DNA from: Hyphomicrobiales bacterium | GTDB taxonomy: Bacteria > Pseudomonadota > Alphaproteobacteria > Rhizobiales > Xanthobacteraceae | NCBI GenBank assembly: GCA_017304555.1 | Contig: JAFKKS010000166.1 | Location: 1 to 49,446 of the forward strand | Length of the DNA stretch: 49,446 nucleotides | Direction of reading: 5' to 3' | Part shown: piece by piece, positions 40,833 to 48,336 of the stretch | How the letters are laid out: each line of letters opens with the position of its first letter | Position numbering within the stretch: position 1 is the stretch's first letter | The notes under the pieces: model-generated | Seen by the model: only the letters and a program-made list of their open reading frames with translations | Database searches by the model: none | Told to the model about the DNA's origin: nothing | Position numbers and translations under genes: made by a program

Positions 40833-41627
40833 ATGAATCGCACACAGACAAAAGTCGAAGCCGCGGCGCTCACCGCGCGCCAGCGCCGGGTGCTTGCCGC
40901 CGTGCAGGAGCTCGGCTTCGCGACGATCGACAGTCTCGCGCGGCAGTTCGCCGTGTCGAGCCAGACGGTGCGCCGCGATATCATCAAGCTGCAGGAGGAA
41001 AATTACCTGCAGCGCTTCCACGGCGGTGCGGGCCTCGCCGACGGTTCGTTCCGCGTCGGCTATGCGCAGAAGCTGCGGACCTCGCCGCAAGGCAAACGCC
41101 GGATCGGTGAGGCGGTCGCCGCCATGATTCCGGACGGCGCCGCCGTGTTTCTTGATGTCGGCACGACGGTCGAGGCCGTGGCGCGCGCCCTGCTGGTAAA
41201 GGCTGATTTGCGGGTCTTTACCTGCAGCGCCTCGGTCGCGATGATCTTGTGCACCAGCGGAAAGTTCGAGGTTTTCGTCACCGGCGGCGTGGTGCGCGGC
41301 GCCAACGGCTCGCTGGTCGGGGGCGCGGCCATCAATCAGATCAATACGTTGCGCACCGACTACGCCGTCATCGGGCTCGGCGGCTTCGACGACGACGGCT
41401 CTCCGATGGATTTCGACCTGGAGAAGATCGCGGTGCGTCAGGCGGCTCTCGCCCGCACGCGGCACGCGATCGCGGTCGCCGACACCTCGAAGTTCGAGAA
41501 GATAGGAGTGGCGCGCATCGCGCCTCTGTCCGCCTTCCATGCGGTGGTGACGGACGGGCGGCCCCCGGCAAAGCTGCAAGCCAGTCTGAAAAAAGCCGGC
41601 GTCCGTGCGGTTGTCGCCGCCGGTTGA
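40833..41627 (+). CDS. DeoR family transcriptional regulator (GlpR-like)
   Basis: This 264-residue repressor-type protein has an N-terminal DeoR helix-turn-helix (ARQRRVLAAVQELGFATIDS and AVSSQTVRRDIIKLQEENYL) and a C-terminal phosphosugar-sensing domain: IPDGAAVFLDVGTTVEAVAR, FVTGGVVRGANGSLVGG and TDYAVIGLGGFDDDGSPMDFD. DeoR-type regulators normally sense phosphorylated sugars or glycerol-phosphate. It lies between two PhnCDEE operons, divergent from the first and 89 bases upstream of the second. It probably controls both, pointing to an organophosphate rather than a simple phosphonate ligand (inference). Confidence 0.9.
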   Translation: MNRTQTKVEAAALTARQRRVLAAVQELGFATIDSLARQFAVSSQTVRRDIIKLQEENYLQRFHGGAGLADGSFRVGYAQKLRTSPQGKRRIGEAVAAMIPDGAAVFLDVGTTVEAVARALLVKADLRVFTCSASVAMILCTSGKFEVFVTGGVVRGANGSLVGGAAINQINTLRTDYAVIGLGGFDDDGSPMDFDLEKIAVRQAALARTRHAIAVADTSKFEKIGVARIAPLSAFHAVVTDGRPPAKLQASLKKAGVRAVVAAG

Positions 41628-41716
41628 GGCTGGTCGTTTTCGTTCAAAGTGGTAGAAATAGATCATCAACACGCCGCATCCGCTCGCAGAAGGCGCACGG
41701 CAAGGGAGAAGACGAC

Positions 41717-42597
41717 ATGAGGCTTTGGGCAGTTACGGCCGCATTGGCATCGGCGCTGGCGGCGTTTGCAGGCATCGCATCCGCGCAACAGTCTTGCGCG
41801 AGCAGGGGCACACTCGATGTGCGCTATTGCGACGCCAACGGTGACCTTGTCGCGGATACGCCGGCCGACAAGGCGCAGCAGAAGAATCCGGACACGCTGA
41901 TCTTCTCCTACACGCCGGTCGAGGATCCGTCGGTCTACGAGAACGTCTTTGCCGACTTCCTGACGCACCTCAGCAAGGTCACCGGCAAGAAGGTGAAGTG
42001 GTTCGCGGCCGAGTCCCGATGGAGCGCAAGGACGGGACAATCGGTTACACGCTGCAGGTCATCGTGCCGAAAGACAGCCCGATCAAGACCATCGCGGATC
42101 TCAAGGGCAAGCGCGTCGCGCACGTCTCGCCGTCATCGAATTCCGGCGACACCGCGCCGCGCGTTCTCTTCAAGGCGCAGGGCATCGAGCCCGGCAAGGA
42201 CTACGAGATCATCTATTCCGGCAAGCACGACAACTCGATCATGGGCGTCGTGAACAAGGATTACGACGCGGCCCCCATTGCGTCGAGCGTTCTCGATCGC
42301 ATGGTGGCGCGCGGTATGCTCAAGCGCGAGGACCTGCGCGTCATCTACGAGTCGGCGCCGTTCCCGCGCACCGCTTTCGGCGTCGCGCACGACCTCACGC
42401 CGGAGCTGCAGGAGAAGATCAAGCAAGCCTTCCTCACCTTCGATTTTGTCAATTCCAAGCTCGGCAAGGAGTTCAAGGACGAAAAGGCGTTCAAGCCGAT
42501 CGACTACAAGCGGGATTGGGTCGACATCCGCACCATCCAGAAGGAAACCGGCATCAGCTACACGCATGAAGGCTTGGCCAAGCTGAAGAAGGACTGA
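41717..42597 (+). pseudogene. phnD: Broken PhnD-type binding protein (operon 2)
   Basis: The 5' part from ATG 41717 encodes a signal peptide (MRLWAVTAALASALAAFAGI) and a PhnD N-terminus through TLIFSYTPVEDPSVYENVFA to KWFAAES near 42015. The 3' part, in another frame, resumes at RKDGTIGYTLQVIV, KRVAHVSPSSNSGDTAP and runs to the stop at 42597. Compared with the intact phnD of operon 1, about 38 residues between these blocks are missing, and the deletion is not a multiple of three, so the frames no longer join. This is a disabled gene, or an assembly error; a programmed frameshift would not explain the lost segment. Confidence 0.85.
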
Positions 42598-46062: not shown

Positions 46063-48252
46063 TTAGTGCCCGGAGCCGGCCTCGACCTTTCCGTCGAAGA
46101 TCTCCGGGTTAGCGGGCCCTTCGACATGCAGGATGCCGACCAGACCGCGCTCTGCGCGTGACAAGGCGTGGTCGACCAGCGTGTAGTTCCCCGGCACGTC
46201 GAGCTTCGCTTCGGTGATCACGGCGCCGCCCGCCGGCACAGTCACGGTCTGGATGCCGCGCAGCGGCTCGCTGAGCACGCCTCCGAGGTTGTAGACCTTG
46301 TCGAAGATCTCGCCGATCAGATGGAACGACGAGGTGTAGTTCGGGCCGCCGACGCCGAAGAAGAAGCGGACCGTCTCTCCGACCTTTGCCTGCAGCGGAT
46401 GCAACTTCGACAGCGCGCCGACGGAGCCGTTGAAGACAAAATACTCCGGTCGCTCGGCGAGCAGCTTCTCGACGTCGAATTCCTGGTTGCCGTGCTGGCC
46501 GAACGGAGCGGCCGTGTAGATCTCGCCCTGCATCACGTAGAACTCACGGTCGACCGGCGGCAGACCTTCCTCCGGTTCGACGAGAATGAGCCCGTACATT
46601 CCGTTGGCGATGTGATGCGCCACCATCGGCGTCGCGCAATGGTAGACATACAAGCCAGGGGTCAATGCCTTGAACTTGAAATCCTTCGTTTCGCCCGGAT
46701 CGGCCTGCGTCGCCGCGGCGCCTCCGCCCGGGCCGGTCGCAGCATGGAAGTCGACAGAGTGCACCATGGCGCTGCCGTCGGCATTCTTCAGGCGGACTTC
46801 GACGGTGTCGCCGACGCGAACCCGCAGCATCGGGCCCGGCACTTTGCCGTTGAAGGTCCAGTAGCCGAACGTCGTGCCTTCCGCGAGACGGCCTTCGAGT
46901 TCGACGGTCACGAGGTCGACACGCACCGTCTGCGGCGCGCGCTTGCCGATCGGCGCAGGCACCTCGGTCGACTGCAGCGAGATGTCGGCTTCGACGACCG
47001 TTTGCGCGGGCGGCTGTGGCGTGACGAGGAACTTGCCTTCCATGCCGGCGAGCTGGTGCCCCGGAATGCTGCAGAAGTAGATGTAGTCGCCTGCCTTCGA
47101 AGCGACGAAGGCGATGTTGGTGCTGGCGCCGCGGCCGACGATGTGCGGCGAACTGGCGGCGGGCCCTTGATCCTGGAAGACGATGTCGTGTTCCGCGCCC
47201 TCGCCGTTGATCAAGGTAATCTGCACGACCTGTCCTTCCGCCGCGGACAGCAGCGGGTTGATCTGGCCATCGATCGTTCCGCCGACGCCGATGAACACCA
47301 TGCGGCCCTCGGCGATGCCGGATTTCAGCGTGTATCGGATGCCGGGGAGATAGCTCCCAGCCGCCTGCGGCGCGGCCGATGGTGTCGACGCGGCTGGGGC
47401 CTGCTGTGCAGTCTGGGCGGGCGCAGCCGGAGCGGGCTGTGAAGCCGGCGCCGGCGCGGCGGCGGGAGTCTGCTGTGCGGTCGCAGGTGCGGCCGTCGGC
47501 GGAGCGGACGTTGCCGCGAGATAACTTATGACCGTCTTGCGCTCAGTCTCGTTCTTCAGTCCCGGGAAGGGCATCTTGTTGCCCGGAACGACTTTCTGCG
47601 GGTCCGCCAGATAGCGGTCGAGCGTTGCGGCGTCCCACGTCAGGCCGCTGTTCTTCATCGCCGGCGAGTAGTTGTAGGTGGAGACATGGCCGGCCTTTTG
47701 ATCGATCACACCGGCGAGGCTCGGTCCCAGGCCGTTCTTGCCGGCCTCGAGCGAGTGGCACGCCTGGCACTTCCGATAGACCTGTCGGCCGGCTGCCGCT
47801 TCTTCGCTCAACGCCGGAGCGGCCGCAGCCGTTTTGCTTGCAGCAGGGGTAGCGTTCTGCGCAACCGCCTGTGGTTTCGCTGCGGCCGCATGATCATGCG
47901 TCATACCCGCGGCGGGCGCGGGCGCCGGGGCCGCGGCGGCTTTCTCATTCGCCTTGGACGGAGCCGCTGCAGCCGGAGCCGCTGCTGGCGTGGCGGGTTG
48001 AGGGGCTTGCTTGCTTGCAGGCGTCGATGCGCCGCTTACAGGCGCTGATTGCGTTTGCGGCGCGGCAGCAGTTGCAGGAGGTGCGCTCGCCTGCGGTGTC
48101 GAGGCGATTTGCGTCGGCTTATCCGCCGCTGCGGATGTCTCGCTTGTGCTCGGCGCTGACGCGCTCCGCACCTGCATCAACGAAAGACCACCGACGATAA
48201 TGACGAGGGCTGCCACAAGAATCGACCATTCTCGGACAAACTTGTTCGCCAT
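46063..48252 (-). CDS. nirK: Membrane-anchored cytochrome c - cupredoxin - copper nitrite reductase fusion
   Basis: This 729-residue protein reduces nitrite to nitric oxide in the periplasm. Order: membrane anchor (9-27); Ala/Pro/Gln linker; cytochrome c domain with haem motif CQACH (162-166) and axial Met in GNKMPFPGL (about 227); second linker; cupredoxin with type 1 copper ligands His355, Cys394, His399 and Met404; then the two-domain reductase core. In the core, VHSVDFH gives type 1 His498, catalytic Asp501 and type 2 His503. YHCATPMVAHHIANGM gives type 2 His538, Cys539, His547 and Met552. FHLIG holds catalytic His644, and VDHA holds His695. The core is closest to the AniA class. The ATG at 48252 has GGAGG upstream. 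The tethered domains probably deliver electrons to the type 1 copper. No nor or nos genes are nearby. Confidence 0.93.
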   Translation of the reverse strand: MANKFVREWSILVAALVIIVGGLSLMQVRSASAPSTSETSAAADKPTQIASTPQASAPPATAAAPQTQSAPVSGASTPASKQAPQPATPAAAPAAAAPSKANEKAAAAPAPAPAAGMTHDHAAAAKPQAVAQNATPAASKTAAAAPALSEEAAAGRQVYRKCQACHSLEAGKNGLGPSLAGVIDQKAGHVSTYNYSPAMKNSGLTWDAATLDRYLADPQKVVPGNKMPFPGLKNETERKTVISYLAATSAPPTAAPATAQQTPAAAPAPASQPAPAAPAQTAQQAPAASTPSAAPQAAGSYLPGIRYTLKSGIAEGRMVFIGVGGTIDGQINPLLSAAEGQVVQITLINGEGAEHDIVFQDQGPAASSPHIVGRGASTNIAFVASKAGDYIYFCSIPGHQLAGMEGKFLVTPQPPAQTVVEADISLQSTEVPAPIGKRAPQTVRVDLVTVELEGRLAEGTTFGYWTFNGKVPGPMLRVRVGDTVEVRLKNADGSAMVHSVDFHAATGPGGGAAATQADPGETKDFKFKALTPGLYVYHCATPMVAHHIANGMYGLILVEPEEGLPPVDREFYVMQGEIYTAAPFGQHGNQEFDVEKLLAERPEYFVFNGSVGALSKLHPLQAKVGETVRFFFGVGGPNYTSSFHLIGEIFDKVYNLGGVLSEPLRGIQTVTVPAGGAVITEAKLDVPGNYTLVDHALSRAERGLVGILHVEGPANPEIFDGKVEAGSGH

Positions 48253-48276: not shown

Positions 48277-48290
48277 TTGCGTTATCGCAA
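48277..48290. promoter_or_regulatory. TTG-N8-CAA palindrome, proximal to nirK
   Basis: TTGCGTTATCGCAA is a perfect 5+5 inverted repeat of the FNR/NnrR type, centred about 31 bases before the nirK ATG. That is very close for an activator site. It may be a second regulator site or a repressor-like position. Confidence 0.45.
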
Positions 48291-48322: not shown

Positions 48323-48336
48323 TTGCGATTGAGCAA
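48323..48336. promoter_or_regulatory. Candidate NnrR/FNR activator box for nirK
   Basis: TTGCGATTGAGCAA fits TTG-N8-CAA, the pattern bound by FNR-family nitric-oxide or low-oxygen regulators that control nirK in rhizobia. Its centre at about 48329.5 would place a -41.5 activated start near 48288, leaving a leader of about 36 bases. No -10 element could be assigned confidently. Confidence 0.5.

Follow-up and report, generated by a model that had tools for sequence, protein, structure and literature searches.

The window, a 49,446-nucleotide stretch of one contig from a Hyphomicrobiales bacterium, carries on its minus strand a gene for a four-domain copper nitrite reductase, nirK (46063..48252, stop included), that is read as a single open frame of 729 amino acids with no internal stop; these are exactly the boundaries that an earlier note on this DNA had assigned. 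Its ATG is preceded by GGAGGA. An upstream TTG (48366) was rejected as the start, since a clear ribosome site precedes the ATG and an N-terminal helix follows it directly. From the N to the C terminus, and always on the minus strand, the protein consists of that hydrophobic helix (residues 2-27; 48172..48249), a first linker, Ala/Pro-rich and predicted to be disordered (residues 29-146; 47815..48168), a haem c domain with the motif CQACH at 162-166 and axial Met227 (residues 150-250; 47503..47805), a second linker (residues 251-298; 47359..47502), a type 1 copper cupredoxin domain (residues 300-412; 47017..47355) and an AniA-class nitrite reductase core (residues 417-724; 46081..47004). The helix is placed by structure model and hydropathy, and the linkers by composition and structure model.

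The folded domains are assigned by profile and structure matches. Pfam finds Cytochrom_C at 152-247, Copper-bind (plastocyanin/azurin-type) at 351-410 and multicopper oxidase domains within the core. The core matches the NCBIfam copper nitrite reductase model TIGR02376 at 423-723 with 368.4 bits against a cut-off of 296.3, which classes the protein as a NirK; identity and Foldseek similarity to PDB entry 6the also place it. The cupredoxin domain aligns with 6tfd and 2dv6. The haem domain, whose nearest solved chain is 1qn2, scores 99 bits with NF043008 (cytochrome c-550 CycA; NCBIfam), which is under the cut-off; CycA is an electron donor to the NirK of Bradyrhizobium. These matches, together with the modelled N-terminal helix, reproduce the order that the earlier note had read from the sequence (anchor helix, haem c, cupredoxin, AniA-class core), and the copper ligands and catalytic Asp and His that it had seen are all present and conserved. 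The haem ligands C162, C165, H166 and M227, the cupredoxin type 1 ligands H355, C394, H399 and M404, the core type 1 ligands H498, C539, H547 and M552, the type 2 ligands H503 and H538, and the catalytic D501 and H644 are the same in all 30 four-domain proteins aligned. The third type 2 ligand, H695, is shared by 29 of the 30; the exception is a draft sequence (L032) whose frame ends early, with loss of the type 2 His, probably through a frameshift.

In the structure model the haem domain is helical and the cupredoxin and core are beta-rich, and disorder (pLDDT <50) is predicted for about residues 27-144 and 253-303. The long linkers of the earlier note are confirmed: Ala, Pro, Gln, Ser and Thr make up 82% of linker 1 (about 29-146) and 98% of linker 2 (about 251-298). 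Because the model is of a monomer and has a pTM of 0.48, it does not fix the arrangement of the domains. The N-terminal helix is mostly confident, with pLDDT block means of 81 and 93 over residues 1-20 and 63 over 21-30, and the mean hydropathy of residues 2-27 is 2.37; it is probably an uncleaved membrane anchor. That it is instead cleaved as a signal peptide, to yield a soluble periplasmic enzyme working otherwise alike, is possible if somewhat doubtful: a lone N-terminal hydrophobic helix is compatible with anchor and signal peptide alike, and the two- and three-domain relatives begin with ordinary signal peptides, but no clear A-x-A cleavage site is seen by eye after the helix, which in the model is long and uniform, as befits an anchor.

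An enzyme of this build has a precedent: Sasaki et al. 2021 reportedly dealt with the four-domain CuNiR of Bradyrhizobium sp. ORS 375 (BrNiR). PDB entry 6the bears the title of the core domain of the four-domain heme-cupredoxin-Cu nitrite reductase of that strain; it is 76-77% identical to the core encoded in the window (Foldseek TMt 0.93) and up to 86% identical to those of other four-domain loci, and with the Hyphomicrobium three-domain enzymes it is the nearest solved structure (Foldseek, phmmer). In the ORS 375 enzyme a cytochrome c and a cupredoxin are tethered N-terminally, and a two-domain copy exists beside it (PMC7775769; PMC8301774); the genome of the window likewise has a second, two-domain nirK. 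The window protein has its cytochrome c and cupredoxin N-terminal to the core, as the BrNiR type is defined (PMC8301774), and the identity to 6the makes the cores close relatives. BrNiR comes from another species, and the comparison with it covers the core sequence and the domain order as described in PMC8301774. The Bradyrhizobium precedent that the earlier note had named is found in 6the and in these papers (PMC7775769; PMC8301774).

Other relatives share parts of the chain. The three-domain enzyme of Hyphomicrobium denitrificans (HdNiR; 2dv6, 6tfd, 6tfo) has an N-terminal cupredoxin and a core with the same ligands and is 62% identical over the shared part (Foldseek), but it is without the haem domain and the long linkers, and has His27/His24 where the four-domain proteins have Tyr301; the haem domain of the window protein, and its Tyr301 at or beside the His27 position, set it outside the HdNiR type. 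The enzymes of Ralstonia pickettii (RpNiR) and Pseudoalteromonas haloplanktis (PhNiR, 2zoo) have an AniA-like core, about 50% identical, and a tethered haem c, but they carry that haem at the C terminus and lack an extra cupredoxin, whereas the window protein has its haem N-terminally and terminates with the core. AniA of Neisseria gonorrhoeae (1kbv, 5ue6), with a core about 55% identical and the same SSFH-type catalytic His pattern, has neither tethered haem nor cupredoxin. The earlier note's assignment of the core to the AniA class is right. The window gene very probably encodes a genuine, intact four-domain haem-cupredoxin copper nitrite reductase of the ORS 375 kind. The enzyme type is already described from Bradyrhizobium, and the gene is largely ordinary.

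Two details of the linkers may be less so. In linker 1 lies a His-x-His element, MTHDH (residues 117-121; 47890..47904, minus strand). Of 26 non-redundant sequences, 20 have a close His pair in linker 1, where shuffling would lead one to expect 3.9; the pair mostly sits 30 to 57 residues ahead of the haem motif. Linker 2, which is strongly depleted in His and Met, has no such pair in the non-redundant set. That the element binds copper is a guess from residue type. The second detail is Tyr301 (47350..47352, minus strand), invariant in the four-domain proteins (30 of 30) and bordering a variable stretch; in the phmmer alignment it falls opposite His27/His24 of the Hyphomicrobium enzymes, but the MAFFT alignment places it one residue before the His, so that the register is uncertain, and its surroundings have pLDDT <50 in the monomer model. 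Searching the literature for His-rich elements in the linkers of NirK yielded nothing relevant, and neither feature was found in the open papers on the four-domain enzyme class, the primary ORS 375 paper aside; both may be undescribed, and they are the sole potentially new details. A His-x-His pair soon past the signal peptide, resembling the linker 1 element, is also seen in two- and three-domain NirKs (L041, L042, L053, L054, L057, L059, L061).

In the mechanism proposed for the tethered enzyme, it would be held at the periplasmic side of the inner membrane; electrons of the respiratory chain would enter the tethered haem and pass to the cupredoxin copper, and from there to the core type 1 copper, possibly in a neighbouring subunit of a trimer or hexamer; and the type 2 copper, lying between subunits, would reduce nitrite to NO with protons from D501 and H644. 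In the solved structures of the Hyphomicrobium enzymes, about 24 Å separate the cupredoxin copper from the type 1 copper of the core (PMC7201279). This gap is too wide for easy electron transfer in that static form, which weighs against the route; movement or inter-subunit transfer would be needed, and the long linkers would permit it. Two built-in donors that dock flexibly, as the earlier note had proposed, are no more than plausible.

A restraining effect of the tether on the enzyme is also probable, and the candidates for it are residues of the linker close to the active site. According to a review that covers the engineering of the ORS 375 enzyme, its extra domains gave no rise in activity and may lower it (PMC12117333), and it is this report that makes a restraining tether a serious alternative. 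Its stronger form, in which the tethered domains are mainly regulators and not donors, linker 2 reaching the type 2 copper pocket, Tyr301 gating nitrite entry as Tyr323 does in RpNiR, and activity being lowered until the donor domains are reduced, is unlikely. In its favour, besides the review, are the invariance of Tyr301 and its phmmer alignment with His27, the residue that holds nitrite at the type 2 copper in the Hyphomicrobium enzyme (PMC7201279), as well as the Tyr gate on the tether of RpNiR (PMC13324648); against it stand the uncertain register and disorder noted above, and the finding of a Tyr at this position in two Alcaligenaceae three-domain proteins also, and of neither Tyr nor His in the Deinococcus ones. 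(An extension of the His/Tyr pattern to these Deinococcus proteins was rejected for that last reason.) The His-x-His of most members and a Tyr301 at or next to the nitrite-anchoring His27 position suggest that the tether may both supply the enzyme with electrons and gate it. A fuller version, in which the His-x-His element (often with Met) collects copper and loads the three copper centres while Tyr301 gates the type 2 copper, so that the tether would regulate the enzyme and help its assembly besides leashing the donors, is quite unlikely to hold. The two conserved linker features offer specific mutant targets for the question of why donors should be tethered to an enzyme that is reportedly not sped up by them.

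A search for the same domain order, which the earlier note had proposed as a check, finds 34 loci, of the 73 returned by a scan of one genome per species, at which haem and cupredoxin precede the core within one frame. All 34 are in other genomes; one of them (L040) stops inside the core, and in a few others the N-terminal end is damaged or missing. The hosts are Bradyrhizobium, Afipia, Pseudolabrys, Rhodoplanes, Methyloceanibacter and Xanthobacteraceae, mostly Xanthobacteraceae and Nitrobacteraceae. In the core tree, which leaves out 6the, the four-domain cores (the window and 33 loci, 34 rows) all fall on the same side of a branch supported at 99/97, and because they do, a single fusion origin would be enough for them all. 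Mean identity of the four-domain proteins to that of the window is 81% for the core, 74% for the cupredoxin, 65% for the haem domain and 28-35% for the linkers. The ORS 375 example known from the literature is thereby joined by 34 further loci, forming one clade. The case that the earlier note had named as a refutation, an assembly (or frame) artefact fusing separate genes, can be dismissed: nothing was found to favour it, in a genome that is a draft of 542 contigs, and it is contradicted by the single uninterrupted frame and by the same order at 34 independent loci elsewhere in a single clade. The four-domain type was found in 2 of 41 genomes, its own among them, in a smaller search, and in its own genome only among 101 genomes of the order; no record in a plasmid search spanned 80% of the protein.

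Upstream of the gene are two FNR/NnrR-type boxes of the form TTG-N8-CAA (no strand assigned), TTGCGTTATCGCAA at 48277..48290, 31 bp upstream of the ATG, and TTGCGATTGAGCAA at 48323..48336, 77 bp upstream of it; the nearer is close for an activator site. At least one FNR-type box lies within 300 bp upstream at 21 of 35 loci, against about 1.5 expected from single-base shuffles, with some start codons assigned by rule. These two predicted boxes suggest that the four-domain nirK is made under low oxygen or NO. Its neighbours in the window encode an ABC transporter that includes a phosphonate-type binding protein, as well as a HAD hydrolase and a LysR regulator, and no neighbour is common across the four-domain loci. 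NnrS genes lie close to four-domain nirK in three genomes only (L011:2296-3495, L019:8019-9263, L027:7684-8955), supporting an NO-related role. Elsewhere in the window (41249-42597, plus strand) the gene for a phosphonate-type substrate-binding protein is apparently split over two frames: the match of the second frame (41998-42594) to PF12974 starts at profile position 77, the apparent N-terminal part is in another frame, and the gene appears to be a pseudogene or to contain a sequence error.

The same genome also holds, at G000:C531, a classical two-domain nirK, with an adjoining FGE/SUMF1-type gene that looks like nirV, with Crp/Fnr-type regulators, and with a free cytochrome c nearby that is 51% identical to the tethered haem domain. 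In this draft genome, about 90% complete, neither NosZ nor NapA was found above the curated cut-off. Near the two-domain nirK (L097:5546-9094) lies a COX1-like protein with the helix motif GHVFIN where oxidases have Tyr, in a group with a subunit II with the CuA-like motif CLEFCGVGHHDM, an SCO1 protein and a cytochrome c; the group looks like an unusual CuA-type NO reductase, not a classical cNOR.
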